Assembly (NCBI GenBank): GCA_021730635.1
Contig: JAJNNC010000004.1
Coordinates: 372,001-436,000 of the forward strand
DNA: 64,000 bases
Direction: 5' to 3'
DNA from: Catalimonadaceae bacterium JC749
GTDB taxonomy: Bacteria; Bacteroidota; Bacteroidia; Cytophagales; Cyclobacteriaceae
Shown here: piece after piece, positions 15,545 through 45,682 of the stretch
How positions within the stretch are numbered: position 1 is the stretch's first letter
Layout of the letters: every line of letters begins with the position of its first letter
The notes under the pieces: model-generated
Database searches by the model: none
Told to the model about the DNA's origin: nothing
The model's input: only the letters and a program-made list of their open reading frames with translations
Translations under genes and position numbers: made by a program

Positions 15545-15733
15545 GAAACTCTCTTCAATATGCATCCTGGAATGGCACCATCCGATGATTCCCCATCGAA
15601 ATAGGCAGGAGTCGCTAGAAGGACTCTGGATCGTGTGGGGCTCTGCCGTTGAAAAAAATAAATAAAAAAATTGAGCGATCAACAGAGTAAATCAGGCATC
15701 GACTGAGTATATCATAATAAAAGGGCTCAAACT

Positions 15734-16735
15734 ATGGATGAACGTCTCCTGGACAAATTTTTCAATGGGCAATGCAACGAGGAGGAAAAGCGGCAGGTGA
15801 TGCTATGGTATTTATCGGGTCATGCCGATAATGCCATGGCCTCTAAAATTGAGTCCCTTTGGAACGAAGACCCGGCTATCCATCCAAAGTGGGAAAAAGC
15901 ATCTGTCTTACAAGCCATCCATGAAGATATTGATGCCGGGGAAAGAAGAAAGAGCAGGAAGGCGCAACCCTGGCCACAGTTGTGGAATTGGCGTTATGCA
16001 GCAGCGGCAGTCCTTTTCCTGCTCATGGTAGGAGGATGGTGGTTGGTGGAAAGAAGTATACCATCCCAGAAAGAAATTGTAGCCACTCCTGCTGAATTTG
16101 TAGAAAGCTATACCAACAAAGGTGAAAAAAGAATGATAACCCTGGCTGATGGCACCCTGGTCAAATTAAATGCTGATAGCCGCCTCCGATACGCTCAGGA
16201 TTATGGACAAGGAGAGAAGCGATCGGTATTTTTAGAAGGAGAGGCTTTTTTCGAAGTCACCCGGGATACCTTGCGTCCCTTTCAGGTATTCACAGGCCCG
16301 GTTGAGACTACCGTCTTAGGTACTTCCTTCAATATCAACGCCTATGATCCGAAAGAATCGGTGACGGTATCTGTGGTGACCGGCAAAGTGCAGGTGCAAC
16401 AAACACAAGCCCCGCCCTCATCTGTCTATCTTGTGCCGGATGAACAGGTGGTATTTACCAGGACTGACGGTGGCTTGTATAAAAGTTCTTTCAACCACCA
16501 GAAGGTGCTGTCCTGGAAAGAGGGGACGCTCTATTTTGAGAATGCTACTTTTGAAGAGATCGTCACTTTACTGGAACGATGGTATGGCGTTAACATAGAC
16601 GTGCGGCGACAAAAGATTGAAGATGGATTCAGTGGAAGCTATACCAATCGTTCGCTGGAAAGTGTGCTCAACGGAATCGGGTTTGTCCTCCATTTTGACT
16701 ATGAGATACAAGGAAATCAGGTAACCATTAAATAA
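15734..16735 (+). CDS. FecR-family anti-sigma regulator
   Basis: 333 residues. A cytoplasmic N-terminal anti-sigma segment covers about residues 1-80 (LDKFFNGQCNEEEKRQV). One membrane helix follows near 88-106 (AAAAVLFLLMVGGWWLV). The periplasmic FecR domain (LADGTLVKLNADSRLRY; GEAFFEV; PFQVFTGPVETTVLGTSFNI) and a C-terminal domain (FSGSYTNRSLESVLNGI) complete it. It should relay the state of the STN domain of the neighbouring receptor to the sigma factor. It is separated from the sigma gene by 189 bases. Confidence 0.94.
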   Translation: MDERLLDKFFNGQCNEEEKRQVMLWYLSGHADNAMASKIESLWNEDPAIHPKWEKASVLQAIHEDIDAGERRKSRKAQPWPQLWNWRYAAAAVLFLLMVGGWWLVERSIPSQKEIVATPAEFVESYTNKGEKRMITLADGTLVKLNADSRLRYAQDYGQGEKRSVFLEGEAFFEVTRDTLRPFQVFTGPVETTVLGTSFNINAYDPKESVTVSVVTGKVQVQQTQAPPSSVYLVPDEQVVFTRTDGGLYKSSFNHQKVLSWKEGTLYFENATFEEIVTLLERWYGVNIDVRRQKIEDGFSGSYTNRSLESVLNGIGFVLHFDYEIQGNQVTIK

Positions 16736-16767
16736 ACGATAAAATGATACCACTCAACAGCAGTTAA

Positions 16768-16800
16768 AAGCCAGTATTCCAAATCTCGGAATACTGGCTT
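16768..16800 (+). promoter_or_regulatory. strong stem-loop between fecR and susC
   Basis: A perfect 13-bp stem, AAGCCAGTATTCC/GGAATACTGGCTT, with a 7-base loop. No T run follows directly, so it may be a processing site, attenuator or 3'-end stabiliser rather than a plain terminator. Confidence 0.65.
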
Positions 16801-16811
16801 GGAGAAAATTT

Positions 16812-16846
16812 TTCAGATGCTACGGTTGGCGCTGTCAACATCTGAA
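16812..16846 (+). promoter_or_regulatory. second inverted repeat in the susC leader
   Basis: TTCAGATG (16812-16819) pairs with CATCTGAA (16839-16846) around 19 bases, 43 bases before the SusC start. Together with the first stem-loop it gives the receptor mRNA a structured leader. Confidence 0.4.
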
Positions 16847-16889
16847 GCGGTATAGATTAAGCTACAAAATCTAAAAACCATTCCAATAT

Positions 16890-19800
16890 ATGAAAAAAAT
16901 AATACAACAACTCATCATCATGTCCAGGTATGCGCTATGGGGAATCACACTTCAATGTATTGGCTGCAGTATGCTGCTGGCTGCCGGCAGTCATGCGCAG
17001 AGTGTCAGCATAGAAGATGTATTCATCCAGGTACATGTCCGTGAGGGAAGCTTGCGGGAAGTGCTTACGGTATTGGAAGAAGAAAGCGGGTTTCATTTTG
17101 TCTACAATGAAAAAGTGTTGGATAAGTACCACGGGATCAGCATACAGGACCGGAAACAGTCACTGGCAGATATTTTAAGACAGATTTCCAGAAAGACACA
17201 GCTGGCCTTCAAACGGATTCACGACAATATCCATATAAGTGAAATGAAATCCGGCGACAAGGTCATTGAAGAAATTTTGAGCCAGGTTCCTCCTGTCGAT
17301 GTGACCGGAATAGTGACGAATCTGGAAGACGGTGCTCCTTTGCCCGGGGTCAATATTATAGAAAAAGGAACCAATAATGGCACTGTGACCAATGTAGAGG
17401 GCAATTACAGAATCAGGGTGAGCGATGAATCGGCCGTGCTGATCTTCTCTTCCATTGGCTACACTTCCGAAGAAATTCCAGTCAATGGGCAGTCGCAAAT
17501 AGACGTAGCCCTGGCGGAGAGTATCGAAAGTCTGAGTGAAGTGGTAGTGGTGGGCTATACTACCCAGCAGCGAAAAGATGTGACTTCCGCTGTAGCTTCC
17601 GTAGACGTGAAAAGTATGCAAAAAAGAGCGGTCACGGATGTGACCCAGGCCATGCAAGGCAATGTGGCAGGGGTCAACATCGTAGCCGGTAATGGTAATC
17701 CGGGTTCTCCCATCAATATCAATATCCGAGGGGTCTCCTCCTTTTCAGGGGATAACACGCCCCTGGTGTTGGTTGATGGGGTACAGGTGGAAGGAGGGCT
17801 GCGCGAAATCAATCCCAATGATATCATGTCTATCGAAGTGCTGAAAGATGCCTCCTCAGCGGCTATCTATGGTTCCAGGGCCGCCAACGGCGTCATCTTG
17901 GTCACTACTAAAAGGGGAGAGCGGAAAGAGGCACAGGTGACCTACCAAAACTACCTGGGCTTGCAGGTGCCCTATGCGGGCATTGACGTAGCCAACGCCA
18001 GAGAATATGTGACTATCCTGCAACGCATGTATGGAGAAGATCTCAGTGGCGGTGATCTGATTCCTCAGGCAGCCATAGACTACCTGGCCAATCCTGGTAA
18101 CTTTCAGGATTACGACTGGCAGGATCTCATCTATGACACTGCGCCTATGCAAAGCCATGACCTGTCGGTGTCAGGGGGCGGTGAATTTGGTACTTACCGC
18201 ATCTCAGCCGGATACATAGACCAGGATGGCATTACCATGGGGACAGAATACAAAAGGGCGAATATCAGGGCCAATGCTGAATTTAATGTCAATGAGAACC
18301 TGACCTTTGGGCAGAGTTTGTCATTGGCCACTTCTGCCACGGAAACTGAACCTTATGCTTTCAGCAGATCCACTTTTTATCAGGCCATTGCCATGTATCC
18401 CTATTTTTCTCCTACGCTTCCGAATGGAGATTGGCAAACTTCTTCCTTTTACTATGGAGGGGGTGATAATCCTGAAGCCCTCATCCGTAATCCTTTTCAT
18501 TACCAAAGTGTCTGGGATGGCGATGAGAACGAAAGCGATATTTCTCTGAATATGTATGGAGAACTTAAAATAACAGATCATCTGGAATACAATCTGAGTG
18601 GTTCTTACTCACAAGGCATTAGCCGGTTCAGAAATTATTTTGGGGATAAAGGCGAATTTCAGGATGAGTACTTTGATGATAACCTGGCGCTGACAGAATC
18701 GGAAGCCACATCTTATAATTATAGCATCGACAATACGGTCAGATATCAGAACCAGTTCAATATACATTCTGTAGACGTTACCGTCGGATTCATCTCTCAA
18801 AAATTCGGTGACCGCTACATTGCGGGCAGTAAGACTGGTTTTCTTTCCGATGTGACCTCTACCCTGGATGGTCCGGGAGGTAAGAATCCTAATGTGAATG
18901 GAGGAAAACAGGAAAGTTCCTTGCTTTCCCTGATCGCACAGGCATTTTACTCCTTTGATGACCGCTATCTGGTGACCTTGAATTTCAGGAGGGATGGTTC
19001 CTCCCGATTCGGTCCTGACTACCGCTGGGGCAACTTTCCGGGTGTCTCCGTCGGCTGGCGTTTATCCGGAGAAGAATTCTGGAAAAACAGTGCTTTGACT
19101 GATGTGTTCACCGATCTGAAAATAAGAGCAGGGTATGGGGAACTGGGGCGTCAAAATCTGGGCAACTATGATTACCTGCCAGTATTGCAATACGTGCCTG
19201 TCGTCTTTGGAGAATCTATTGTAGATGGACTGATTACGGGAACACCTATCAACGAGGCCATTTCCTGGGAACGTCTGATCTCTAAAACTATCGGGATAGA
19301 TTATGAGCTGTGGGAGGGAAAAGTAAGTGGCTCTTTCGATTATTATAACAACGACACCAAAGACATGATCATTGGGGTGGCTATCGCTCCTTCTGTCGGG
19401 GGCGGTGAACTACAGTCCAATGTAGGAGAGATCAATAATACAGGGTTTGAAATGAGCCTGAATCATAGAAACAATGTAGGCAATTTCAGTTATGAGGTAG
19501 GGTTTAATCTAGGCACTACCAAAACAAAACTGATCAATATCGGCCGGGAACTCATCGAGGGGGATGGCCCTGAATGGGATGTGCCACACTCCATCGAAAT
19601 CAGAAGAGGCGGCGGATTGGCAGAATACTGGCTGATTGAAACCGATGGGCTGTTCAGGTCTCAGGAAGAAATAGATAATCATACCAATTCGGAGGGGGTT
19701 GTCATACAGCCCAATGCCCAGCCGGGTGATATCCGTTTTGTAGATGCCAACGACGATGGTGAGATTACGCCGGAAGGCGATCGGCAATATCAGGGTACTG

Positions 19801-20333
19801 GCATGCCTAAAGTCAACATGGGGTTCAATCTGTATGGTGCCTATCAGAATTTTGATTTATATGTTGGCCTCACCGGCGCTTTTGGTCAGGTCATTTATAA
19901 CGGTCCCCGCTACCTGATAGAGCAAAACTACGGCTATGATAACTTTAGCACCAGCTTACTGGATGCCTATGATCCGGTGACCAATCCGAATTCTGATTTT
20001 CCGCGACTCAACCCCAACGATGTGGACGATAACTGGAACTCACGCCCAACCTCTGACCGCTACATTGAAAATGGCAGTTATGTGAAAGTCAGGAACATAG
20101 AAGTAGGTTATAATATCCCTGTTACAAGCTTGGCGAAGGTAAAGATGAATTCTGCCCGACTGTTTGCCAGGGTTCAGAACCTGGTGAATATTACAGGTTA
20201 TACTGGCTCGGATCCGGAAGTGGGCTCTTCTCCTATAGTAAATTCAGATCCCATTTTCACAGCGGGTCTTGATCGGGATACTGCCCCTCAGGCCAGGTCA
20301 TTTCAGATTGGTGTGAATGTTACTTTTCAATAA
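16890..20333 (+). CDS. SusC-family TonB receptor with N-terminal STN signalling domain
   Basis: 1147-residue outer-membrane importer. A signal peptide ends near SHAQ. The STN (secretin/TonB) domain lies at about 45-120 (LREVLTVLEEESGFHFVYNEKVL) and contacts FecR. A carboxypeptidase-regulatory-like domain follows at about 135-215 (DVTGIVTNLEDGAPLPGVNI). The plug spans about 220-345 (EVVVVGYTTQ, LVLVDGVQVEGG, IEVLKDASSAAIYGSRAANG), and the barrel runs to the C-terminus. It pairs with the SusD protein 14 bases downstream. Ligand binding would both import the substrate and activate the sigma factor upstream. The enzymes downstream suggest a modified disaccharide or glycoside rather than starch. 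Confidence 0.95.
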   Translation: MKKIIQQLIIMSRYALWGITLQCIGCSMLLAAGSHAQSVSIEDVFIQVHVREGSLREVLTVLEEESGFHFVYNEKVLDKYHGISIQDRKQSLADILRQISRKTQLAFKRIHDNIHISEMKSGDKVIEEILSQVPPVDVTGIVTNLEDGAPLPGVNIIEKGTNNGTVTNVEGNYRIRVSDESAVLIFSSIGYTSEEIPVNGQSQIDVALAESIESLSEVVVVGYTTQQRKDVTSAVASVDVKSMQKRAVTDVTQAMQGNVAGVNIVAGNGNPGSPININIRGVSSFSGDNTPLVLVDGVQVEGGLREINPNDIMSIEVLKDASSAAIYGSRAANGVILVTTKRGERKEAQVTYQNYLGLQVPYAGIDVANAREYVTILQRMYGEDLSGGDLIPQAAIDYLANPGNFQDYDWQDLIYDTAPMQSHDLSVSGGGEFGTYRISAGYIDQDGITMGTEYKRANIRANAEFNVNENLTFGQSLSLATSATETEPYAFSRSTFYQAIAMYPYFSPTLPNGDWQTSSFYYGGGDNPEALIRNPFHYQSVWDGDENESDISLNMYGELKITDHLEYNLSGSYSQGISRFRNYFGDKGEFQDEYFDDNLALTESEATSYNYSIDNTVRYQNQFNIHSVDVTVGFISQKFGDRYIAGSKTGFLSDVTSTLDGPGGKNPNVNGGKQESSLLSLIAQAFYSFDDRYLVTLNFRRDGSSRFGPDYRWGNFPGVSVGWRLSGEEFWKNSALTDVFTDLKIRAGYGELGRQNLGNYDYLPVLQYVPVVFGESIVDGLITGTPINEAISWERLISKTIGIDYELWEGKVSGSFDYYNNDTKDMIIGVAIAPSVGGGELQSNVGEINNTGFEMSLNHRNNVGNFSYEVGFNLGTTKTKLINIGRELIEGDGPEWDVPHSIEIRRGGGLAEYWLIETDGLFRSQEEIDNHTNSEGVVIQPNAQPGDIRFVDANDDGEITPEGDRQYQGTGMPKVNMGFNLYGAYQNFDLYVGLTGAFGQVIYNGPRYLIEQNYGYDNFSTSLLDAYDPVTNPNSDFPRLNPNDVDDNWNSRPTSDRYIENGSYVKVRNIEVGYNIPVTSLAKVKMNSARLFARVQNLVNITGYTGSDPEVGSSPIVNSDPIFTAGLDRDTAPQARSFQIGVNVTFQ

Positions 20334-20347
20334 CAACGAGCAAGATC

Positions 20348-21922
20348 ATGAAAACTTTGATACATCATTTTATCGCAAAAATCATCACGCCTGTCCTGCT
20401 CCTGGTCATCGCTTCCTGTGGTGATGATTTTTTAGACCTTCAGAATCCCAATCAGATTACGGCTGCCACTTTTTTTGAGACGCCCGAGCAGGTACAGCAG
20501 GCTGTCAATACCTTGTATCCGGCGATGATAGGGGTAAGACTGGCTGAAAATGGAGGATTCTTTCAGCAAAATGCTAGAAGCGGAGAAGCCGAGATCACCT
20601 CAGGAGCTTTCGATATTCAGGTCTCTTACTACAACTTTCAGAACACCCCGGAAAGTGGTAGTACCGATGCCTTATGGGAGTCACTCTATACGGTGATTTA
20701 TAGAGCTAATACCATCTTAGCCAACCTGGACCGGGTCGATTGGTCTGAAAACGAAGAACTAAGGACTAGCTTAATTGCAGAGACTCACTTTTTCAGAGGA
20801 TTAGGGTATTTTCATCTGGCTTATCTCTATGGACAGGTCCCGATTGTGACCAAACCTGCGGAGACTGAAGAGGAATTTAATCCTGACAAAGCGGAGAGTA
20901 TTGGGGCGGTGTATGATCAGGCCATCGCCGATCTTCAGATAGCCAAAGCCGGACTGCCAGAAGAACAAGACGATTCGGGGAGAGCCACCAAAGGAGCAGC
21001 CACCGGGTTTTTGGGAAAAACCTATTTGTACAGAGCCAGCTTTCTGGGTGAGGATAATTATTATGCCCAGGCAGCTACAGAATTCAGAGAAGTGATCGAC
21101 ATGGGCCTGTATGACCTGGTAGAAAATTATGAGGATAACTTCACTGCCGCCAATGAAAACAATGAAGAATCCCTGTTCGAACTACAACTAAAATTTGATT
21201 CCGGATTGGAAACGCCTACCCAGGACAGACCTTTCAACAGTGTGCCGGGCATAGGCTTTGAGATATTTCTTCGTCCTTCAGCCTGGCTGATGAACACCAT
21301 GGCCCAGGAAAGAACAGTAGACGGAGAATATGATCCCAGATACCTTCAAACAGTATATTTTGATGGGGGTTTGCCTTTGTTTGGCGTACCTTATGATCAG
21401 TTGGGAGACGGAATCGGTTGTGAAGGCGGAAGAGGCGTAGGAGGGGCGCCTGATGGTTCCAGTTCCAAAGAAGGAGGGTGGTGGCGTAAATACCTGAATG
21501 TGAATTTAAGCTGTGAGCCTGTTTTGGTGGGCAGTGAACCGGAGAACAATGAACGTGTGTTGCGATATGCCGATATACTGCTCATGTATGCAGAAGCAGT
21601 ACTGATGTCGGGAGGCAACCTGACAGTAGCGGCGGAAGCTGTCAACCAGGTGAGAGATCGGGCCAACCTGGTGGAAAAGACCTATGCCAGCAGTGAGGCA
21701 TTGATGGAGGAAATCAGGCATCAGCGGATTATGGAGTTTGCCTATGAAAATGTGCACTACTTCGATCTGATCCGCTGGGATTTGTTAGGAGAAGCTTTGC
21801 AGGACCACGGAACAGCCACACAGGTCGCTTCTTATGATCCGGTAAAGCACAAATATTTTCCAATTCCAACGGGTGAGATCAACAACAATACCAACCTGGA
21901 GCAAAATGAACCCTGGCAGTAG
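20348..21922 (+). CDS. SusD/RagB-family nutrient-binding lipoprotein
   Basis: 524 residues with a lipoprotein signal (VIASC, lipid anchor on C24) and the SusD tetratricopeptide scaffold. The N-terminal motif DDFLDLQNPNQIT and the C-terminal motif IRHQRIMEFAYENVHYFDLIRW are characteristic. It forms the surface lid over the SusC barrel encoded just before it. It ends one base before the likely start of the next gene, so the receptor pair and the catabolic genes are probably one transcript. Confidence 0.95.
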   Translation: MKTLIHHFIAKIITPVLLLVIASCGDDFLDLQNPNQITAATFFETPEQVQQAVNTLYPAMIGVRLAENGGFFQQNARSGEAEITSGAFDIQVSYYNFQNTPESGSTDALWESLYTVIYRANTILANLDRVDWSENEELRTSLIAETHFFRGLGYFHLAYLYGQVPIVTKPAETEEEFNPDKAESIGAVYDQAIADLQIAKAGLPEEQDDSGRATKGAATGFLGKTYLYRASFLGEDNYYAQAATEFREVIDMGLYDLVENYEDNFTAANENNEESLFELQLKFDSGLETPTQDRPFNSVPGIGFEIFLRPSAWLMNTMAQERTVDGEYDPRYLQTVYFDGGLPLFGVPYDQLGDGIGCEGGRGVGGAPDGSSSKEGGWWRKYLNVNLSCEPVLVGSEPENNERVLRYADILLMYAEAVLMSGGNLTVAAEAVNQVRDRANLVEKTYASSEALMEEIRHQRIMEFAYENVHYFDLIRWDLLGEALQDHGTATQVASYDPVKHKYFPIPTGEINNNTNLEQNEPWQ

Positions 21923-21923
21923 G

Positions 21924-23486
21924 ATGAGGAAGTTACTGTGCTTAGGAATGCTGTTGTTGCCTGTGCTGCTGTGGGCACAGCCACAAACGGAATCATCTGC
22001 TGACTCCCTGACCATCGTGTTTGTAACGGGTGACGATGAGTACCATTCCCGGGAAGTGATGGTTCCTTATGCCCAAAAACTGAAGGAAGACTATGGATTC
22101 AGGGTCATCTATATCAAAGATGAAGCGCCCGGTGCTGACTTGGCACCCAACCATGATCCGCAACCCAGTGTATTACCGGATGCTGACAAAATCAAAGAAG
22201 CGGATTTGATGGTAGTGTTCATGCGTTTTCGCCGATGGGAGCCCAAATCTTTGAAAATGTTTATGGATCATTTTGAAAAAGGGAAACCAGCGGTTGGGAT
22301 CCGTACCACGACCCATGCCTTTTGGAAAGACCGCACTTTCTCCCCCCGTTACTTTGGGGGGCACTATAAAACGCACTACCATGAGCGTATTGTAGGGCAG
22401 GTTAACCCCCATTATGCAGACCATCCGATGGTACGAGGGGTGCAAAAAAAGTTTGGTCAGGGAGAAGGGCCTTATGTTTCCACGCCACTATCAGAAGGGG
22501 CCATTCCTGTCGTGTTTTCTTATGGACATGATCGGGAAACCCCCGGCATAGGAAACGATCATTTTGATTCTCCTCAATATCCGGTCGCCTGGACCTTCCA
22601 TGACAAGGGTGCACGCAGGGCCATGATTACCCTGGGTAGTGATAGGGTGAATGACCATGAATTTGATGTGATGCTCAACCTGTTCTACAACGCTGTCTTC
22701 TGGTCGCTGGGTTTTCAGGTACCCGAAGGGGGCGTGCTGGCTGCAGGAGATGATTTCAAAAGAGTCAAAGAAAATGAGCCATATGAACCTGTAGAACATA
22801 AGGTGCCAGCACCCCCTGCTTTTACCGCTGGAGATGGATGGGAAATGCTTTTCGATGGAAAAGACCTGTCCAAGTGGAGGCACTGGGATGTGTCCTTGCC
22901 ACCCTATGGTGTCCCGCTGGACACCCGGGCCAACTCGGAAGGCCCCATTGATTATGCCTTATCGCCTGCACGTTGGGAGATCAAAGACGGAACGGTAGTA
23001 GCCCGGGTGGGCTATGGGGATATCATCACCAAAGCCGAATATACCGACTACCAGTTGCGCCTTGATTTCAATATTCCTCCACAGCCCGAATGGGTGGAAG
23101 GAGAATGGCGGGGGAACAGCGGTGTTTTTCTGAATGGGTCCTATGAGATTGCTATCCTTGATTCCTTTGGTCAAGCACCTTCCGACAGAACCAATGGGGC
23201 CCTATACCGGCGAAAGGCACCCGATCAGGAAGCCTCTAAACCTGCAGGAGAGTGGCAGACGCTGGAAGTGACCATGGAAGGGGGAAAGGCTACGGTGAAA
23301 CTGAATGGAAAAGTAATTCACAACAAGGTGACTTTAGAAGAACCTACCCTGCATGGATTTCCTTCCAGAAATTTTCCGGAAGGAAGCTGGCAGAAAGAAG
23401 ATAACATTTTTTCGCAGGGGCCCATACGTCTACAGGCAGAGACATCCTATGTCCGGTTTGCCAATATTGCCATCAAACCGCTTTGA
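21924..23486 (+). CDS. ThuA-like domain fused to DUF1080 (3-keto-disaccharide hydrolase domain)
   Basis: 520-residue exported two-domain protein. The chosen ATG follows the SusD stop by one base and begins a good signal peptide (RKLLCLGMLLLPVLLWAQ); a start 18 bases earlier is also open. Residues about 30-270 are a ThuA glutamine-amidotransferase-like domain (VFVTGDDEYHSREVM, VGIRTTTHAF). Residues about 290-520 are a DUF1080 concanavalin-like domain (GWEMLFDGKDLSKW, GNSGVFLNGSYEIAILDSFG). DUF1080 is the Pfam 3-keto-disaccharide hydrolase family, and ThuA acts in the 3-keto-trehalose pathway of rhizobia. The natural reading is periplasmic cleavage of a 3-keto-glycoside. The substrate is not known. 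Confidence 0.88.
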   Translation: MRKLLCLGMLLLPVLLWAQPQTESSADSLTIVFVTGDDEYHSREVMVPYAQKLKEDYGFRVIYIKDEAPGADLAPNHDPQPSVLPDADKIKEADLMVVFMRFRRWEPKSLKMFMDHFEKGKPAVGIRTTTHAFWKDRTFSPRYFGGHYKTHYHERIVGQVNPHYADHPMVRGVQKKFGQGEGPYVSTPLSEGAIPVVFSYGHDRETPGIGNDHFDSPQYPVAWTFHDKGARRAMITLGSDRVNDHEFDVMLNLFYNAVFWSLGFQVPEGGVLAAGDDFKRVKENEPYEPVEHKVPAPPAFTAGDGWEMLFDGKDLSKWRHWDVSLPPYGVPLDTRANSEGPIDYALSPARWEIKDGTVVARVGYGDIITKAEYTDYQLRLDFNIPPQPEWVEGEWRGNSGVFLNGSYEIAILDSFGQAPSDRTNGALYRRKAPDQEASKPAGEWQTLEVTMEGGKATVKLNGKVIHNKVTLEEPTLHGFPSRNFPEGSWQKEDNIFSQGPIRLQAETSYVRFANIAIKPL

Positions 23487-23604
23487 AAGCTTACGGGATA
23501 TTTACAAGGAATGGGTGAATGACAAATAATAAATGAAGGATGGCTGTATAAAATCCAATGACATTTACTTTATTCACAGAAAGTAATTAAACATTGATAA
23601 CCTT

Positions 23605-24645
23605 ATGAAGAAAATGACAGGCACAACCTTAAAATTACTAGTTCTGATAGGCATGATCACCCTCTTGCAGGAAAAAGAAACACAGGCACAAAACAGCCCC
23701 AGCGACCCATGGGTCGTTTACCAGGGTGGGGAAGGAGCCGGGAAAGGTAAGCATATTGTACTGGTCAGTGGCGATGAGGAGTATCGTTCGGAAGAAGCCT
23801 TGCCCATGCTGGCCCGCATCCTTTCTACCCATCATGGCTTTAAGTGTACAGTGCTTTTTGCCGTAGATCCACAAAGCGGTGAGATAGATCCTGAATTCCA
23901 GACCAATATTCCTGGATTAGAGCAGCTGGAGACAGCAGATCTGATGGTCTTGTTTACCCGTTTCAGGGAATTGCCCGATGAGCAGATGAAATATATAGAT
24001 GCCTATACCAAAGCCGGCAAGCCGGTGGTGGCTATGCGTACCGCTACCCATGCCTTTCAGTATACCCGCAATAAGAAAAGCCCCTATGCTAAATATAGCT
24101 ACGACAGCAAAGTGAAAGGCTGGCAGGAGGGCTATGGCCGGCAAGTGTTGGGAGAAACCTGGGTGGCGCATCATGGTGCTCATGGAGACGAAGGGACTCG
24201 TGGATTGATCAACGGACTGTATGAAGATCATCCAGTCTTACAGGGAGTACAGGACATCTGGGGGGCTACCGATGTGTATACCATTCGTGACCTGACAGCA
24301 GATGCCCAGGTGTTGGTCTTCGGTCAGTCTACCCATGGCATGACGCCGGATTCTCCCATGAGTTTTGAAAAATCTATCATGCCGGTAGCCTGGACCAAAG
24401 AATATGAAAGTGAAAGCGGTAAAAAAGCCAGGGTGTTTAATACCACTATGGGAGCCTCCGTGGATCTGGAAAGCGAAGACCTTCGAAGGCTGCTGGTCAA
24501 TGCCTGCTATTGGGCAGTGGGGATAGAAAACAAAATTCCACAAGAAAGCAAGGTAGACATCGTAGGCGAATATGATCCTACCATGTTTGGTTTTGGAGAT
24601 CATCAGAAAGGATTGCGCCCCTCAGATTTTGCCGTGAAACAATAA
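23605..24645 (+). CDS. secreted ThuA domain protein
   Basis: 346 residues: a signal peptide (to about residue 28) followed by a single ThuA-like domain. Segments such as [34 protein letters not shown] and [11 protein letters not shown] parallel those in the upstream fusion protein, so the two are paralogues. No DUF1080 domain is attached. It probably works on a related intermediate, or on the same one after cleavage. ThuA proteins lack a proven general catalytic mechanism, so the exact reaction is open. Confidence 0.87.
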
Positions 24646-24653
24646 CAATAAAA

Positions 24654-25712
24654 ATGAACCAACCAACAACCTTACAGCTACACAATGCTATGTGGCCCGG
24701 TATCGTCGGTAAAGGAGAGGGGGCTGACGAACCGGCGATAACATTGGAAAAGATGCTCGATCTCACTGGGCAGGCCCATGTACAAGGTCAGCACTTTGAC
24801 GGCATAGACCTTAACCTGATGGAGCCTCATCTCAACATAGCTGCTTCTAAAGATGAAATACTGAGATTTGCCGATCAGGTGGCTGCACGGGGGCTACATA
24901 TCGGCTCGGTAGGGGCACCCATCTGGCCTCCCGCTGGAGGAGGCTCCGCCATGGGTAGCCAGGCAGAAAGAAAGCGCTTCGTGGAAATGGTGAGAAAATC
25001 CTGTGAGTATGCGGCAGTGCTGAATCAGCATGGTGTTCGCACTTATGGCAATATTCGTATAGACTCTGCCGATTCTCCGGCCAATTGGGCTAAGAATCCT
25101 CAGGAAAATACCAGACTGATTGCCCAAACTTTTCGGGAAGCGGGCCGTATCGCTGCTGACTTTGGAGAGCGGTTGGCAGCCGAAGGGGAGATATGCTGGG
25201 CAGGTATGCATTCCTGGCAACATATGCTCAACCTGCTGGAAGCAGTAGGTATGCCCGGACAGGTAGGATTCCAGGCTGACCTGGCTCATACATACCTTTT
25301 CTTATTAGGATACAATGCCTCTGAACACGCCTTGTTGGAAAAAGGCTATACGGAAGAACAGTTCTGGGAGGCATATCAGCGATTAACGAATGCACTAGGT
25401 CCCTGGACAATAGATTTCCATGTAGCCCAGAGTGATGGCAGTGTCTATGGGAGTGGAACCCATGATAAAACCGGACGCCATTGCAGAGCCGATGATCCGA
25501 ATGGTAAACTGGATGTGGTACGTTGTGCCCGTTACTGGCTGTTAGATGAAGAAGGCAGGATACGCAACGCCATCCGTCATATTTGTTGGGATGGTTGTAT
25601 GTTCCCTAATGCCGTGCTGGAAGCGCCTCAAACCTGGCAGCAGGTGCTGGCCCTGATGCTGGAGGTCCGTGACGATATTGAAAACCACGAAAAAGAAGCA
25701 CATAAGCCGTGA
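24654..25712 (+). CDS. TIM-barrel sugar isomerase/epimerase-like protein
   Basis: 352 residues without a signal peptide, of the AP-endonuclease-family-2/xylose-isomerase-like TIM-barrel class. Visible elements are [40 protein letters not shown] and [15 protein letters not shown], with acidic and histidine metal ligands at strand ends. It starts 8 bases after the ThuA gene, in the same transcript. Expected reaction: keto/aldose isomerisation, epimerisation or lyase chemistry on a sugar intermediate. It is longer and more divergent than the two other TIM barrels in this operon. Confidence 0.82.
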
Positions 25713-25808
25713 GGGGAAGAGACTAAATAGTCTGCTCTTATCTTCATTGGTTTTTTTGTTTTTTGCCACCCTTCGTGTCAGAATTTATCAACTTAAACGA
25801 AAGATTCC

Positions 25809-26663
25809 ATGAATAATAAAATAGGATACAATATGTTAACCTGGTCGGCCGTGGTTTCCGATGCATTGTTACCGGTGGTAGACAGGTTACAACAGATAGG
25901 TTATGATGGGGTGGAAGCCGCCATGGCCTCCAGAGACATTTCAGCTTTCCAGCGTTTTGGCAAACATGCTCATGACCTGGGGCTGGAGGTTACCTGTGTG
26001 TTGGCTGTAGGGCCCGAGGAAAACCCTATCAGCGATTCCAAAGCGGTCAGACAACTGGGACTGGATCGCATCAAGTGGGCCATAGACAGAGCCCATGATA
26101 TGGAGGCTAAAGTGATCTGTGGTCCTTTCCATTCCGCTTTTGCCACTTTTGCCCGTCGGCCACCCAATGAACAGGAATATGCCTGGAGTGCCGAGGTGCT
26201 GCAACAGGCAGGAGACTATGCAGCCCAGGCCAACGTGCTGCTGACATTGGAAGCCATCAACCGTTTTGAATGTTATCTGTGTAATACCATGGAACAGCTC
26301 ACCAGCCTGGTGCACCGGGTATCGCATCCGCAGGTCAAAGCCATGTACGATACCCACCATGCCAATATTGAGGAAAAAAAGTTTAAGGAAGCCATTGAGC
26401 AGGTAGCCCCGGTGTTGGGGCATGTCCATATCAGTGAAAACGACAGAGGGGCTCCCGGGGAGGGCCATGTGCCCTGGGACGACACCTTTCAAACCCTGGC
26501 TCAAAACCAATATCATGGGTGGCTGACCGTTGAAGCTTTTACCCGCAACGATCCGGAATTTGCCAATGGCATCAACGTGTGGCGGCAGTTTTCGGAACCC
26601 TGGCATATTGCAGAAAAAGGGTATGCGTTCATCAGGGAAATGTGCCAGAAATACCAACTGTAA
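25809..26663 (+). CDS. ketose 3-epimerase/hydroxypyruvate isomerase-like TIM-barrel enzyme
   Basis: 284-residue cytoplasmic TIM barrel close to D-tagatose/D-psicose 3-epimerases. The four expected metal ligands are E148 (TLEAINRFE), D181 (MYDTHH), H207 (GHVHISENDRG) and E242 (LTVEAF). R213 in ENDRG fits the substrate arginine of that group. It should use a divalent metal to epimerise or isomerise a free ketose at C3, which suits a locus handling 3-keto sugars. It is the second of three TIM-barrel enzymes in the operon. Confidence 0.87.
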   Translation: MNNKIGYNMLTWSAVVSDALLPVVDRLQQIGYDGVEAAMASRDISAFQRFGKHAHDLGLEVTCVLAVGPEENPISDSKAVRQLGLDRIKWAIDRAHDMEAKVICGPFHSAFATFARRPPNEQEYAWSAEVLQQAGDYAAQANVLLTLEAINRFECYLCNTMEQLTSLVHRVSHPQVKAMYDTHHANIEEKKFKEAIEQVAPVLGHVHISENDRGAPGEGHVPWDDTFQTLAQNQYHGWLTVEAFTRNDPEFANGINVWRQFSEPWHIAEKGYAFIREMCQKYQL

Positions 26664-26696
26664 AATTTTTTTATCACGCTCTAACACAGAAGAACA

Positions 26697-27500
26697 ATGC
26701 CCTATGCTAATGTGAATGGAATCCGATTGTTTTACGAGGAAAGAGGAACAGGCGAACCTTTACTGCTCATCATGGGCATCACAGCTCCAGGGGCTGTCTG
26801 GGAAAAACATGCCGCCTACTGGGAACCGCATTTTCGTTGTATCCTGGTGGATAACCGGGGGGTAGGTTTCTCCGATAAACCCCAAGGTCCTTATACGACA
26901 TCCCAGATGGCCGACGATTATGCCGGTCTGCTGGAAGTCCTGCACATTTCCCAAACCAGGGTGGTAGGTGTTTCTATGGGAGGCACTATCGCCCAGCAAC
27001 TGGCTTTGCGCCATCCGGAAAAAGTGACAGCCCTGGTGCTGATGTGTCCCTGGGCTCGCTGTGACCGTAAAACAGAGGCAGTATTCCGGCATATGATGCA
27101 CGCCAAACGCCTGCGGCCGGAAGAGTTTGCTAACTTTGTGCAACAGCTGATCTATCACAAATCCAGCTGGGATGATGATGAGATTTTTGAAGATCTGATG
27201 CAGTCTCAGCAGGAGGCTATGATTGCACCTTTCCCACAGCCTCTGCATGGGCTGGAAGGTCAGGCACATGCCTGCATCAACCACAATGTGCTCTCCGAGT
27301 TACCCAACATCCAGCACCCTTGTCTGGTCATTGGCGGGGAGGAAGATATGTTTGTACCAGCATGGATGGTGCGTGAAGTGGCCCAGGCTATTCCTAACAG
27401 CGAATTGCATTTGTACCCTGAGGCTGGCCATGCTTTTCACTGGGAGAAAATAGAGGATTTCAATCCCAGGGTATTGCATTGGTTACAGGAGAAAGGTTGA
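26697..27500 (+). CDS. alpha/beta hydrolase (enol-lactonase-like)
   Basis: 267 residues without a signal peptide. The nucleophile elbow is GVSMGG with S93, the acid is probably D217 (IGGEEDMFVP) and the base is H245 (EAGHAFHWE). The oxyanion region is IMGITAPGAVW and the conserved DNRGVGFSD follows. It resembles 3-oxoadipate enol-lactonase and related esterases. In this operon it could open a sugar lactone formed by oxidation, or remove an ester from the imported compound. It starts 33 bases after the epimerase gene. Confidence 0.88.
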   Translation: MPYANVNGIRLFYEERGTGEPLLLIMGITAPGAVWEKHAAYWEPHFRCILVDNRGVGFSDKPQGPYTTSQMADDYAGLLEVLHISQTRVVGVSMGGTIAQQLALRHPEKVTALVLMCPWARCDRKTEAVFRHMMHAKRLRPEEFANFVQQLIYHKSSWDDDEIFEDLMQSQQEAMIAPFPQPLHGLEGQAHACINHNVLSELPNIQHPCLVIGGEEDMFVPAWMVREVAQAIPNSELHLYPEAGHAFHWEKIEDFNPRVLHWLQEKG

Positions 27501-27569
27501 GTCTGTTGATGGGTCAGCTATACTATTACTGAGAGAAACTGTTTGATATATATTCTAATTCCATAAACC

Positions 27570-28391
27570 ATGAATCAAATCAAAATAGGTTGCGAGACCT
27601 ATACCTGGCAAATGCCGGGAGAACAATACAAAGGACAGCTGGACCACATCATGAACATCACGGCGAAAGCTGGATTCCAGGGTATAGAACCGGAAACCAG
27701 CTTTATCAGGCATTTGTCAGATCCTGTGCGCATGCAGGAGACCTTAGAAAAAAACAAGTTAGCCCTAGCCGTTCTTTGTTTGGTAGAAGATTGGCGATTG
27801 CCCCAGGAGACACAGGAGGAAAGAGCCCATGCTGACCAGTGGATCGCCTTTTTGCAGCACTTTCCGGATACCCTTTTGCTGTTGGTGCAGATGCCGGGTA
27901 AAGACCGTGCTGAACTACAGATCCGTCAGCAAAATCTGCTCAAGTGTGTGAACCAGATTGCGCAAAGGGCGGCAGACAAAGGGATTATTTGTTCTTACCA
28001 TCCAAATTCTCCAGCAGGTTCTATCTACAGAACGGAGGAAGATTACAAAATTCTATTGAATGGCTTGGATAGTTCGGTGATCCGGTATACCCCGGATGTA
28101 GGGCACATCGCCAAAGGAGGGATGGACCCGCTGAGTATTATTCGTCAATATAGGGAGTTGGTCAACTGTGTGCATTACAAGGATATGTTTGAAAATGGCA
28201 AATGGGCCCGCATGGGCAAAGGCATCATTGATTTTGAAGGCATTACTCAGGAATTAGTCGACACAGGATTTGAAGGATGGATCATCGTAGAAGATGAATG
28301 TGATGAAGCGATCACCGATCCGGATGGTGTTACCCTTACCGATGGTATCTATGTGAAAGAGGTGTTGAAACCTTTGTTGCCGGGAGGGTAA
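27570..28391 (+). CDS. TIM-barrel sugar isomerase/epimerase-like protein
   Basis: 273 residues, cytoplasmic, of the xylose-isomerase-like TIM-barrel superfamily. Motifs at the metal site include GIEPETSF, ICSYHPNSP, YTPDVGHIAKGG, NCVHYKDMF and GWIIVEDECDEA, the last carrying the C-terminal glutamate ligand. It is related to inosose dehydratase/IolE-type enzymes. Dehydration of a 2-keto-inositol-like or keto-sugar intermediate is possible but not proven. It is the third TIM barrel of the set and follows the alpha/beta hydrolase by 69 bases. Confidence 0.85.
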   Translation: MNQIKIGCETYTWQMPGEQYKGQLDHIMNITAKAGFQGIEPETSFIRHLSDPVRMQETLEKNKLALAVLCLVEDWRLPQETQEERAHADQWIAFLQHFPDTLLLLVQMPGKDRAELQIRQQNLLKCVNQIAQRAADKGIICSYHPNSPAGSIYRTEEDYKILLNGLDSSVIRYTPDVGHIAKGGMDPLSIIRQYRELVNCVHYKDMFENGKWARMGKGIIDFEGITQELVDTGFEGWIIVEDECDEAITDPDGVTLTDGIYVKEVLKPLLPGG

Positions 28392-28521
28392 CAATGGATG
28401 TAAAGTAAAAACCTTTTAAAGAATATATCCTGCAACTTACAGGTGATGGCAGTTTCCTGGATAGTATGCTATTGTTTTCAACCTGCCAGAAGAACGTATT
28501 GATTACAAAAAACAACCTGCG

Positions 28522-31500
28522 ATGAAAAAGAAACATTTTTTGATGATACTGCTGCTGGGGCTTTCAGGACTTTTCTGGCATTGTTCTTCAGAGAGCCATG
28601 AAGGTTCCTGGGACTATGAGCTTGATTTCTTTGATGAGAAGTCTTACGGTACGATGATCCTTGATCGGCAGGGTGGTTCCTATACCGGCAGTCTGATGTC
28701 TTATGAGATGGGCACGATGAAGCTGAACAGCATTGAAATAGAAGGTAACAAAATGACCAGTGAAGTAGCCTTTTATGAAGAGATTTTTACGCTGGAGGGT
28801 GTTTTTGCCGGTGACTCTTTTGCTGGAAATATCATTATGGAAGAAGAAAAATTTCCGGTGACCGCTACTAAAATCTCAACGGAATTTTCTCCCGACAGTC
28901 TGCCGGACGTGGAGTATATTCTGCCCGAGTCCGATTTGGCTGACTATGAAAAAAACCTGGATCATGCCGAACTCATCACTTCTCGGGAGGAAGGGAGAAT
29001 GGAGAGGGGGGAGAGAGTGTATAACAACAACTGTATCAACTGTCATGGGACGCCCGACATTGAAGGGTCTATTCCTTTGTCACGAAAGTTCTGGTCAGAA
29101 CCTTTCAAAGCGGGCAAGGATCCTTATTCCATGTATCAAACCCTGACTCGAGGACAAGGTTCTATGCCTCCCCAGGTCACCCTTACCCCTCAGGAGAAAT
29201 ATGATGTGATCCTCTACATTCGTGAGCACTTTATCCGAAGCGATAACAAGCAGGCGTATTTTCATGTGAATGAAGCTTATCTGTCTCATTTGCCCGAAGG
29301 GTCAACGACCGGCCCGGCAGCCAAACCCTATCATCCCTGGTCGGATATGGACTATGATAATTTTTATATCAATACCTATGAACTGGCTGATGCCGAAACA
29401 GGTCCCGAACGATATCATTCCCCTGGACCGCCTCCATTTTCGGATGAAAACTATCTGAAAAATAATTTTGCTTACAAAGGTATTGCGGTCAGACTGGATG
29501 AAGGTACTGGCGGGGTATCGGCTGGCAATACCTGGATGATCTTTGACCATGATCTGATGCGCATAGCGGGTGGATGGACCGGAGAAGGTTTTATCGATTG
29601 GGAGGGCATTCTGCTCAACGACCGGCACGAGACATATCCCCGTACCGTTGGCAAATTACACTTTGAAACACCGGTAGGGCCTGCCTGGGCCAATCCTGCC
29701 ACGGGCACCTATGAAGATCCCCGATACAAAGCACGGGATGGCCGTCGTTTTGGCCCTCTTCCAAAAGCATGGGCGAACTTTAAAGGTATCTACCATCACG
29801 ATGATAAGATTATCATTGCTTATTCGGTAGGCAACGCCAATATACTGGAGCGACTGGGTATGGAAGAACATGGACAGGAAACTGTCTTTACCAGAACCCT
29901 GAACATCAGTCCTTCTTCCAGGCCCTTACAAATGCGGGTAGCGCCGGATAGCATCCCGGTGGCACTCACAGGCCAGGGGGCAACGCTGGAAAAAGCAGAG
30001 GGCTTTACGGTTTTGAAGGTTCCACAGGGAAGACAAGCCCAGATTAAAGTATACATTGCCAAAACGGGTGTGGAAAACCTGGAAGCTTTTGCTAAAAGTG
30101 CGGCAGCACCGGAATCCTTAGCCCAATATACCAAGGGTGGCAAAACCCGCTATCCACAGCAGCTCACCACGACGATTACGCCAGGCAAGGAAGAGGGGCC
30201 TATTGCGGTAGATCAGCTAACCCCTCCCTTCGACAACCCCTGGAAAAGCAGGATGCGTCTCAGTGGCATTGATTTTATGAAAGATGCCAACAAAGCGGTG
30301 GTTTGCACGGTGGATGGAGATATCTGGACCATTACCGGCCTGACAGACAACACCGGCCAGTTGACTTGGAAAAAAATAGGCACTGGTCTGTTTCAGCCCC
30401 TGGGTATCAAAGTGGTGAATGAAAAAATATTTGTCACCTGCCGCGACCAGCTCGTATTACTCCGTGATTTCAATGGAGATGGAGAAACGGATTTTTACGA
30501 AAGTTATAACCATGATCATCAGGTGACAGATCACTTCCACGAGTTTGCCATGGGTCTACAGACCGATCAGCAGGGGAATTTGTATTATGCCAAAAGTGGC
30601 AGGCATGCCCGGGAAGCACTGGTTCCACAGCATGGTACGCTGATTAAAGTGAGTAAAGATGGTTCTACCTCTGAAATTATTGCCACCGGTTTCAGGGCTG
30701 CCAACGGAGTCTGTATCAACCCTGATGGAAGCTTTATTGTCACGGACCAGCAGGGTTTCTGGAATCCGATGAACCGCATCAATTGGGTAGAAGGGAAAGG
30801 TAAGTTTTATGGAAATATGTGGGGGTATGATCCTCCCCAGGATACTTCCCGTGCTGCGATGGAACAGCCCATGGTCTGGGTGGATATGGAATTTGATCGC
30901 TCTCCTTCAGAACTGATTTGGGTAGACAGCAAAGAATGGGGGCCTCTGAACGGAAGTCTGTTGAGTTTATCTTATGGCTATGGTAAAGTCCAATTGGTAT
31001 TGCCTGAGGAAGTGGGTCAGCAAAAGCAGGGTGGCGTGATCGATCTGCCGGGTATCAAATTTATGACCGGCGTGATGAGAGGGCGTTTTAACCCGGAGGA
31101 TGGCCAGCTGTATGCCTGTGGGATGTCGGCCTGGGGTACCAACCAGATGATGAAAGGAGGAGGGCTTTATCGACTGCGTTATACGGGCAAACCCTTACCA
31201 GTACCCATACAGTTCAGTACGGAAGAAGCTGGCGTGAAGCTGGCCTTCGCCACGTCGCTGAATCCGGAAAAAGTAAGTAATCCCGCAAATTACGAAGTGA
31301 AAACCTGGGAACTGAAAAGAAGTAGTGAATATGGCTCCGAACGGTACAACGTTCGTACCTTGTCGGTGGCAAAAGCGGATATCAGTGAAGATGGTAAAAC
31401 AGTGATGCTGAATCTACCGGATATTGCCCCTGTCGATGTGATGACCATCCGGTATAAGCTGGCTGATACAGAGGGTAACCCTATGGAAGGTACGCTTCAG

Positions 31501-31548
31501 AATACTATCCATGCTTTGAAGCCCGCCTCTATGGCAGCCTTACCGTAG
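28522..31548 (+). CDS. large exported multidomain protein: beta module, cytochrome c, DUF6797-like, propeller-like
   Basis: 1008 residues. The N-terminal hydrophobic stretch ends in a cysteine (C21), but the lipobox LFWHC is not canonical. Residues about 25-120 form a small beta module resembling the secreted protein at 14.4 kb. A single c-type heme motif, CINCH, lies near residue 171, with downstream methionines suited as axial ligand (GSMPPQVTLTP). Residues about 310-470 match DUF6797 (AYKGIAVRLDEGTGGVSAG, WTGEGFIDWEG). The region about 570-880 looks like a PQQ-dehydrogenase/NHL-type propeller (FNGDGETDFYE, GFRAANGVCINPDGSF, YGNMWGYDPP). Planctomycete and Verrucomicrobia proteins share this style. 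It could oxidise a sugar and pass electrons to the heme; that is inference. Confidence 0.8.
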   Translation: MKKKHFLMILLLGLSGLFWHCSSESHEGSWDYELDFFDEKSYGTMILDRQGGSYTGSLMSYEMGTMKLNSIEIEGNKMTSEVAFYEEIFTLEGVFAGDSFAGNIIMEEEKFPVTATKISTEFSPDSLPDVEYILPESDLADYEKNLDHAELITSREEGRMERGERVYNNNCINCHGTPDIEGSIPLSRKFWSEPFKAGKDPYSMYQTLTRGQGSMPPQVTLTPQEKYDVILYIREHFIRSDNKQAYFHVNEAYLSHLPEGSTTGPAAKPYHPWSDMDYDNFYINTYELADAETGPERYHSPGPPPFSDENYLKNNFAYKGIAVRLDEGTGGVSAGNTWMIFDHDLMRIAGGWTGEGFIDWEGILLNDRHETYPRTVGKLHFETPVGPAWANPATGTYEDPRYKARDGRRFGPLPKAWANFKGIYHHDDKIIIAYSVGNANILERLGMEEHGQETVFTRTLNISPSSRPLQMRVAPDSIPVALTGQGATLEKAEGFTVLKVPQGRQAQIKVYIAKTGVENLEAFAKSAAAPESLAQYTKGGKTRYPQQLTTTITPGKEEGPIAVDQLTPPFDNPWKSRMRLSGIDFMKDANKAVVCTVDGDIWTITGLTDNTGQLTWKKIGTGLFQPLGIKVVNEKIFVTCRDQLVLLRDFNGDGETDFYESYNHDHQVTDHFHEFAMGLQTDQQGNLYYAKSGRHAREALVPQHGTLIKVSKDGSTSEIIATGFRAANGVCINPDGSFIVTDQQGFWNPMNRINWVEGKGKFYGNMWGYDPPQDTSRAAMEQPMVWVDMEFDRSPSELIWVDSKEWGPLNGSLLSLSYGYGKVQLVLPEEVGQQKQGGVIDLPGIKFMTGVMRGRFNPEDGQLYACGMSAWGTNQMMKGGGLYRLRYTGKPLPVPIQFSTEEAGVKLAFATSLNPEKVSNPANYEVKTWELKRSSEYGSERYNVRTLSVAKADISEDGKTVMLNLPDIAPVDVMTIRYKLADTEGNPMEGTLQNTIHALKPASMAALP

Positions 31549-31678: not shown

Positions 31679-32542
31679 ATGAAGACCAGTGTGCAGCAGG
31701 CGACCATTATTAAAGTGAATGGGGCCGTGACAGAACAGGCCGATTTGCTGGCGGTGGAAGAACCCCTGGAAATCCGCTTGGGCTACGGACCTCCTCAGGA
31801 TAGGCAACAGCGGACTATCTCCGTGACGATGCGTACCCCGGGCCAGGATTTTGAACTGGCACTGGGCTTTCTCTTCACCGAAGGTGTTATTCGCTCTTAT
31901 CAGGAAGTGGAAAGCATCCATTATTGCCACGACAAGGGGCAGCCACATCAGGAGAATGTGGTAAGGGTAGAGCTAAGTGCTGGTGTAACAGTGGATTGGC
32001 ATCGTCTCCAAAGAAACTTCTATACATCGTCCAGTTGCGGGGTGTGTGGTAAAACTTCCCTGGAAGCTGTCCGTATGATCTGTCCTACTCCTTCCCTCAA
32101 CCATTTCACCATAGACGAAAAAGTCATTCACCAAGCGCCTGACTTCCTGCGCCAAGCCCAGCTGGTCTTTGCCTATACCGGTGGCTTACATGCGGCAGGG
32201 CTGTTTGATACGCAAGGTCATCTCTTGTTATGGCGGGAGGATGTAGGTAGGCATAATGCTTTGGACAAACTCATTGGAGCCTGTCTGATACAGCATCGTT
32301 TGCCATTAGCACATACTTTTGTCTTACTGAGCGGCAGGGTCAGTTTTGAACTGGTGCAAAAAGCATTGATGGGAGGGATTGGTATGATCGCTGCTGTGGG
32401 AGCACCATCTAATCTGGCGGTTCAACTGGCGCAACAATATCATATAACCCTGCTGGGGTTTGTGAGGGATCAACGATTCAACATTTACAGTGGGCATGAC
32501 AGAGTGTTGTACCATCAAAGGTTAGAGAATTATGAGTACTAA
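31679..32542 (+). CDS. fdhD: FdhD: formate dehydrogenase accessory sulfurtransferase
   Basis: 287 residues. The sulfur-carrying motif SSCGVCGK (C120, C123) is intact, as is the FdhD core (FELALGFLFTEGVI; FAYTGGLHAAGLFD; REDVGRHNALDKLIGACL; LLSGRVSFELVQKAL). FdhD transfers sulfur from the cysteine desulfurase IscS to the molybdenum bis-MGD cofactor and is required for formate-dehydrogenase-type enzymes. It overlaps the molybdoenzyme gene downstream by 11 bases, so translation is coupled and the client is clear. Confidence 0.95.
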   Translation: MKTSVQQATIIKVNGAVTEQADLLAVEEPLEIRLGYGPPQDRQQRTISVTMRTPGQDFELALGFLFTEGVIRSYQEVESIHYCHDKGQPHQENVVRVELSAGVTVDWHRLQRNFYTSSSCGVCGKTSLEAVRMICPTPSLNHFTIDEKVIHQAPDFLRQAQLVFAYTGGLHAAGLFDTQGHLLLWREDVGRHNALDKLIGACLIQHRLPLAHTFVLLSGRVSFELVQKALMGGIGMIAAVGAPSNLAVQLAQQYHITLLGFVRDQRFNIYSGHDRVLYHQRLENYEY

Positions 32543-37932: not shown

Positions 37933-37944
37933 GATAGTGTCATT

Positions 37945-45667: not shown

Positions 45668-45682
45668 TCTCACACTATTTTT
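45663..45682 (+). terminator. short terminator overlapping the anti-sigma stop codon
   Basis: AATAGT/ACTATT form a 6-bp stem with a 5-base loop, followed by TTTTTCCTTTT. It lies between two convergent genes whose stops are 7 bases apart. Confidence 0.45.

Follow-up and report, generated by a model that had tools for sequence, protein, structure and literature searches.

A SusCD-linked locus of Catalimonadaceae bacterium JC749 with a recurrent propeller-cytochrome gene and a possible role in sugar oxidation outside the cytoplasm

The locus considered here is a SusCD-linked run of genes in Catalimonadaceae bacterium JC749 that ends with a gene for a propeller-cytochrome lipoprotein (CYT). It lies in a stretch of 64,000 nucleotides (the window, C34:372001-436000); the genome measures 8.0 Mb and is divided into 86 contigs. 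Positions are those of the window unless a contig is named. Its closest described counterparts are pathways that act on keto-glycosides. One of these is the 3-keto-glycoside pathway based on Gfo/Idh/MocA oxidoreductases (Gfo/Idh), reportedly described by Nasseri et al. in Nature in 2024. The other is built on LacABC, in which LacA is presumably a GMC protein. According to the available sections of Price et al. 2022 (PMC9007349), LacABC of Caulobacter is membrane-bound and oxidizes lactose in the periplasm, and DUF1080 is proposed to be the 3'-ketolactose hydrolase; these sections also mention a putative lactose dehydrogenase in Pedobacter, and link LacABC with members of the Bacteroidetes, Pedobacter and Indibacter among them. 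A sequence-only reading of the present locus had held that 3-keto pathways usually start with Gfo/Idh, which is too narrow in view of this periplasmic route with DUF1080.

Our tentative reading is that of a SusCD operon with a CYT-based extracytoplasmic redox module, in which CYT would oxidize a glycoside and the ThuA-like and DUF1080 proteins would process the keto-glycoside. The CYT module itself is real and recurrent, being found in several Bacteroidota, and sugar oxidation by CYT outside the cytoplasm is plausible, as judged from sequence comparisons and a structural model.

Gene content and recurrence of the locus

As to gene content, the sequence-only reading is confirmed, with qualifications: the open reading frames (ORFs) lie where it had placed them. 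All listed genes from 14954 to 31548 are on the + strand (ORF list and profile scans), in the order ECF sigma factor, FecR, SusC, SusD, ThuA-like/DUF1080 fusion, second ThuA-like protein, TIM1, TIM2, alpha/beta hydrolase, TIM3 and CYT, with intergenic gaps of 1 to 130 bp from SusC to CYT. The features are:

12762..14321, + strand: exported sulfatase with a C-T-P-S-R formylglycine-type motif, which may belong to the locus (PF00884, E 1.4e-54)
14954..15544, + strand: ECF sigma factor (Sigma70_r2, Sigma70_r4_2)
15734..16735, + strand: FecR-type anti-sigma factor (FecR, FecR_C)
16890..20333, + strand: SusC-like TonB-dependent transporter, likely with an N-terminal signalling domain (Plug and CarbopepD_reg_2 above cut-off)
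20348..21922, + strand: SusD-like protein (SusD_RagB, E 3.7e-37)
21924..23486, + strand: exported fusion of a ThuA-like domain with a DUF1080 (3-keto-disaccharide hydrolase) domain (PF06439, E 9e-37)
23605..24645, + strand: exported ThuA-like protein, ThuA2 (hhalign with ThuA proteins, probability 98.1, E 1.3e-13)
24654..25712, + strand: TIM1, xylose isomerase-like TIM barrel, no signal peptide seen (PF01261, E 8e-13)
25809..26663, + strand: TIM2, ketose 3-epimerase-like TIM barrel (PF01261; D-tagatose 3-epimerase in the PDB, E 4.8e-34)
26697..27500, + strand: alpha/beta hydrolase, PcaD/lactonase-like, no signal peptide seen (PF00561, E 2.6e-31)
27570..28391, + strand: TIM3, IolE-like TIM barrel (PF01261, E 6e-24; IolE 3cny, E 2e-10)
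28522..31548, + strand: CYT, lipoprotein (N-terminal beta domain, cytochrome c, DUF6797, six-bladed propeller)
31679..34826, + strand: FdhD and FdhF/YdeP molybdo-oxidoreductase, of uncertain membership in the locus (profile scans)

The fusion gene probably starts at ATG 21924, directly after the SusD stop, rather than at GTG 21873. It had been proposed that ThuA occurs twice, once fused to DUF1080; the fusion is borne out by the PF06439 match, whereas the Pfam ThuA family (PF06283), with 13 matches in the genome and none in the window, is matched by neither of the two proteins. By profile alignment, both proteins are remotely homologous to ThuA proteins (for the ThuA-like half of the fusion, hhalign probability 94.6, E 6.5e-8). 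Inspection of the translations reveals signal peptides on the ThuA-like and DUF1080 proteins and a lipoprotein-type signal on CYT, and none on the TIM barrels or the alpha/beta hydrolase. The matches that suggest the signalling domain of SusC (FecR_C, 22.4 bits; STN, 22.1 bits) are each below their own cut-off. Promoter and terminator scans gave numbers near chance, with 32 promoter-like sequences (23.6 expected) and 16 terminator-like ones (17.3 expected), and mark no operon boundary; at 31529-31548, where the CYT gene ends, there is a weak stem.

Matches to CYT occur in 68 of 118 genomes of the family, although in many cases what is matched is a propeller protein of more distant kinship, and 19 places were taken; a further 21 loci came from named genomes (Maribacter, Flagellimonas, Allomuricauda, Seonamhaeicola, Eudoraea, and Flammeovirgaceae and Saprospiraceae assemblies among them). 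With the window included and two duplicate contigs dropped, 39 loci were counted, using labels from local hidden Markov models in the 10 kb around CYT; several contigs are short, so that absences are soft. The module families are ThuA-like, TIM1, TIM2, TIM3, the alpha/beta hydrolase and an MFS transporter, and at least two of them lie within 10 kb of CYT at 18 of the 39 loci. A ThuA-like gene is present at 14 of these 18 (window included), Gfo/Idh at 3, SDR at 3 and GMC at none. Three loci (L068, L069 and L076) have the order SusC-SusD-CYT-MFS-TIM2-hydrolase-ThuA. The MFS transporter adjoins CYT at 10/39 loci, and none of this type was recognized at the window locus. A chance cluster was also considered, and is rejected because the module recurs at other loci. 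The role of CYT as the recurring redox gene of the module is supported.

The propeller-cytochrome protein and its relatives

Pfam, a 22-row alignment and a structural model place the CxxCH motif of CYT at residues 171-175, DUF6797 at 339-443 and the propeller at approximately 557-889. The AlphaFold2 model, built on the 22 alignment rows, has a mean pLDDT (predicted local distance difference test) of 70.7; a single-sequence fold was discarded (pLDDT 31.4). The best 50 rows of a plain Foldseek search were mostly long unrelated propellers with TM-scores <0.6, and VIA-align was therefore run on the Foldseek list, so that its ranking covers only the families on that list. Sugar dehydrogenases that use pyrroloquinoline quinone (PQQ) came out on top for the CYT propeller (3a9g, Z 22.6; soluble glucose dehydrogenase (sGDH), 22.1; AA12, 21.7), and the model indicates a six-bladed propeller of the sGDH type, in terms of fold class only. 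When the CYT family was aligned with GSDH proteins (10 in all, 3 from this genome and 7 from relatives), hhalign gave a probability of 94.4 (E 9.2e-8, 277 columns). The earlier proposal of extracytoplasmic oxidation by the cytochrome protein is strengthened by the propeller and the recurrence of its gene, while oxidation by CYT itself is a prediction. PDB sequence searches with CYT and with a further query, A1, matched chiefly the cytochrome c domain.

Recurring domain fusions link ThuA with propellers of a dehydrogenase-like type and with electron carriers. A single protein, L153 (670-3795), has the arrangement ThuA-GSDH-PKD-cytochrome c; ThuA and GSDH matches share one open frame twice in the JC749 genome (C56:21812-23479 and C56:372410-373741); and ThuA, DUF7133 and cupredoxin domains occur together in JC749 proteins on C8 and C56 (1173 and 1209 amino acids) and in a Maribacter protein of 1164 amino acids, all with HEAT matches below cut-off. 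The window holds ThuA, propeller and electron carrier as separate genes, and the fusions support, at the level of domain content, a shared pathway for the three. The JC749 genome also has, by Pfam, a cytochrome c-GSDH fusion (L164, 1468-2874), though PqqE above cut-off was not found there; L151 and L157, from relatives, carry a similar fusion, as judged from CxxCH in their first residues.

Residues of CYT were mapped to sGDH through an L164-sGDH alignment plus hhalign, that is, residue by residue and from sequence only. We take H144, R228, N229, K377, R406 and R408 of sGDH to be the PQQ and catalytic residues. CYT keeps R725 at the position of R228 and R853-x-R855 (RxR) at that of R406-x-R408, and H673, E674, R725, N728 and R853 are invariant across the 22 rows. 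Several properties of the protein, like the genomic counts given in the next section, weigh against CYT as the oxidant. Glu674 occupies the His144 slot (with His673 adjacent), Ala726 stands for Asn229 and Lys377 has no clear equivalent; L164, which scores above the GSDH cut-off, likewise lacks His144 and Lys377. Confidence in the model is low (pLDDT <50) at 665-674 and 745-748, within propeller loops. The non-enzymatic receptor HHIP (Z 20.8) and SMP30/gluconolactonase (20.3) come close to the top value of 22.6, with DFPase at 19.7. The isolated propeller scores 14.8 bits with GSDH (PF07995, cut-off 25) and is outscored there by the SGL lactonase family (21.9 bits, also below cut-off). Finally, the best PqqE score in the genome is 64.6 bits against a cut-off of 381.35, and 14 controls likewise have none above cut-off; PQQ could conceivably be taken up from outside. 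The residue pattern would fit a diverged dehydrogenase and, equally, a propeller of changed function.

By its profile scores CYT is related to the PVC-type heme-binding proteins of TIGR02604/DUF7133, yet falls outside that family (27.2 with TIGR02604, cut-off 122.2; 15.5 with DUF7133, cut-off 27); L031, a relative of CYT at 38% identity, scores 27.2 against the DUF7133 cut-off of 27. According to the available sections of Cheng et al. 2017 (PMC5342196), a purified member of this group, Lac161_ORF7 (TIGR02604-HEAT-cytochrome c), released glucose from lactose with a Km of 1.8 mM in a glucose-oxidase read-out, and the Lac161_ORF7 cosmid complemented S. meliloti, not E. coli. The lactose hydrolysis reported for this distant relative of CYT also counts against CYT as the oxidant, and CYT might alternatively be a glycoside-cleaving enzyme, perhaps by way of a transient, internal oxidation in which the heme takes part, and would then be no net dehydrogenase. 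Such a role would agree with the remote relationship of the propeller to TIGR02604/DUF7133 and with its SGL hydrolase scores. Lac161_ORF7 is, however, remote and has another domain order, its assay recorded glucose only, and the available sections of that paper make no mention of heme loading; we consider a cleaving CYT quite unlikely.

Other candidate oxidants and the substrate

The absence of Gfo/Idh from the window had been noted earlier and is borne out: a Pfam search of all contigs gave 41 genome matches (40 above cut-off), with none inside and the nearest downstream at C34:449126, approximately 46 kb beyond the CYT gene. The implication that the pathway itself lacks Gfo/Idh is not supported, given these 41 matches and 6 GMC matches elsewhere. 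Since the genome holds many such matches outside the locus, the missing local gene is not decisive, and is uninformative for the cell. None of the 6 GMC and 3 Gluconate_2-dh3 (LacC-type) genome matches falls in the window; each Gluconate_2-dh3 gene is beside a GMC gene, which we take to be the LacA/LacC arrangement.

A dehydrogenase encoded elsewhere, either Gfo/Idh or a periplasmic GMC of the LacA/LacC type, could therefore make the keto sugar, with CYT as an electron shuttle or in lactone handling. Besides the genome matches, the route described for LacABC with DUF1080 (available sections of PMC9007349) speaks for this, as do the surroundings of the ThuA-DUF7133-cupredoxin proteins. On C8 this protein stands with a TIM barrel, a Gfo/Idh and a divergent gene (L104, 8817-14413), and a TIM barrel and Gfo/Idh also lie near the C56 protein. 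The C8 set has counterparts in Maribacter L062 (58, 65, 82 and 61% identity for cupredoxin protein, TIM barrel, Gfo/Idh and divergent gene), where CYT follows directly after the Gfo/Idh, approximately 125 bp away on the same strand; in Maribacter L064, the Gfo/Idh (82%) is kept, and a sulfatase lies between it and CYT. The genome-wide search for Gfo/Idh that the sequence-only reading had suggested thus yielded matches elsewhere and, for one of them, an ortholog that lies beside CYT in two Maribacter genomes. The Gfo/Idh and CYT systems may work together, we infer; Gfo/Idh could, for example, be the oxidant or act as a reductase in the cytoplasm.

Gfo/Idh lies within 10 kb of CYT at 5/39 loci, and GMC at 0/39. 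All nine module-bearing genomes that were searched hold Gfo/Idh matches (6 to 33 in each), so that supply in trans is possible in all nine; a module-bearing genome without Gfo/Idh was sought among them and none was found. At 21/39 loci CYT is accompanied by fewer than two module families, which places it in more than one context, and 12 of the 15 loci with a CYT ORF of 891-928 amino acids belong to these module-poor loci. On the other side, Gfo/Idh is not within 10 kb at 15/18 module loci, and GMC at none of the 18 is, several of the contigs being cut short. In addition, four small module-bearing genomes (G128, G129, G136 and G139; 1.8-2.8 Mb, of unstated completeness) have GMC matches only at E 1e-51 or better, and lack the weakly scoring class to which the GMC genes of JC749 belong (E 1e-15 to 1e-8). 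We regard a dehydrogenase encoded elsewhere as a serious possibility, if a doubtful one.

Nor is CYT, which had been called the only candidate oxidant, alone among redox genes in this neighbourhood: the FdhD and FdhF/YdeP pair begins 130 bp after it. Fdh genes adjoin CYT at 2/39 loci, which is suggestive of formate as a by-product. At L067 (4288-9706), FdhD, a gene for 551 amino acids and FdhA stand directly before CYT on the same strand; the middle gene was read as NuoF-like by eye.

The three TIM-barrel proteins are, as proposed, different from one another, and all match PF01261. A sequence search of the PDB with TIM1 found nothing at E 0.01 or better; TIM2 matches 6wn6, named 3-keto-D-glucoside 4-epimerase (E 1.5e-15), and also shows similarity to IolO. 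The hydrolase had been called lactonase-like; its PcaD-type similarity holds, but the cut-off of the PcaD-type equivalog TIGR02427 is not reached (126.6 against 255.85 bits). An IolE-like TIM3, the IolO similarity of TIM2 and a PcaD-like hydrolase would suit a route that bypasses 3-keto-glycosides, with a cyclitol, aldonate or lactone as substrate and the DUF1080 and ThuA-like domains acting otherwise. It also fits that a separate DUF1080 gene is labelled near CYT in only 2/38 relative loci, with L065 not counted (its ThuA-labelled ORF matches the window fusion at 34%, and the window fusion itself carried the ThuA label in the 39-locus count), and that DUF1080 takes in endo-xanthanase/lichenase, according to the available part of PMC9007349. 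Against this, the window has its own DUF1080 domain (matches number 23 in the whole genome) and TIM2 resembles a 3-keto-D-glucoside 4-epimerase, and we hold such a route to be very unlikely.

The substrate is possibly a sulfated glycoside. The window sulfatase, whose motif and signal were read from the translation, lies 2.6 kb upstream of SusC, with the ECF sigma and FecR genes in between, and 14 kb from CYT. A sulfatase is present at 8 of the 19 family loci (window excluded), compared with 1.9 expected from genome densities; the P value (~1.4e-4 under independence) is optimistic, as the genomes are related and genera repeat, and L045 has an edge-cut and L055 a weakly scoring, 168-residue fragment. 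Six of the eight sulfatase-bearing loci have the shorter CYT form. In seven loci the sulfatase is at most 200 bp from CYT or overlaps it (L046, L047, L050, L051, L054, L055 and L064, the last being outside the 19). The suggestion of a sulfated substrate thus gains some comparative support, the strength of which is overstated by related genomes.

Elsewhere in the window are an alpha-amylase-family enzyme (3198-5207), a GH15/trehalase-like enzyme (45675-47396) and two neighbouring Ferritin_2-domain proteins (37111-38649), one with a weak Tat-signal match below cut-off.

Proposed route and comparison with described systems

For the CYT-based module we infer the following steps, in this order. The SusCD locus would be an uptake and catabolism operon for a (possibly sulfated) glycoside, probably ruled by its own ECF sigma/FecR pair. 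CYT, as an envelope lipoprotein, would oxidize the sugar with its propeller, presumably at C3, and pass electrons through its own cytochrome c to the respiratory chain. The exported ThuA-like and DUF1080 domains would then process or cleave the keto-glycoside, and the released keto sugar would cross the inner membrane, to be epimerized, isomerized and hydrolyzed by the cytoplasmic TIM barrels and the alpha/beta hydrolase. The interpretation offered by the sequence-only reading is in this way partly supported. A bolder version is unlikely: here CYT would be the founding member of a new class of sugar dehydrogenases, heme-propeller proteins anchored in the envelope, and would take the place of both Gfo/Idh and GMC as the first enzyme of a 3-keto-glycoside pathway. 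It would act on a sulfated glycoside through an unusual propeller site of Glu674/His673, Arg725, Asn728 and Arg853/Arg855 that passes electrons straight to the respiratory chain, and would have exported ThuA-like partners that finish cleavage outside the cytoplasm.

The CYT module is a compact set that links ThuA-like, DUF1080, DUF6797 and propeller-cytochrome genes, which recur in these Bacteroidota and for which little tested function was found in the literature; a search of open-licence papers on DUF6797, DUF7133 and combined locus terms found no relevant one. Should CYT prove to be the oxidant, oxidation linked to respiration and located outside the cytoplasm would be the means by which some Bacteroidota open glycosidic bonds; the enzyme class that they use for it is not recognized as carbohydrate dehydrogenases, and some annotated cytochromes would become catabolic enzymes.

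The locus resembles LacABC with DUF1080 of Caulobacter, as far as the available account of the latter goes, in its (here proposed) oxidation outside the cytoplasm, its exported DUF1080 domain and the transporter and sugar epimerases nearby. It differs in that the window has no GMC or LacC-type gene and in having a propeller-cytochrome lipoprotein as its redox protein. With the Gfo/Idh-based 3-keto-glycoside pathway it has in common the DUF1080 hydrolase and TIM-barrel proteins; the locus has no Gfo/Idh, and CYT and the exported ThuA-like proteins are added. CYT shares the six-bladed propeller with the PQQ sugar dehydrogenases (GSDH, AA12, sGDH), its best structural matches, whereas its PF07995 score is below cut-off, the PQQ site is partly kept, and DUF6797 and the N-terminal beta domain are additional. 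Lastly, the PVC-type heme-binding CxxCH proteins (TIGR02604/DUF7133, including Lac161_ORF7) are like CYT in having a related propeller and a c-type heme; in CYT, unlike these, the cytochrome c stands ahead of the propeller and there is no HEAT match.

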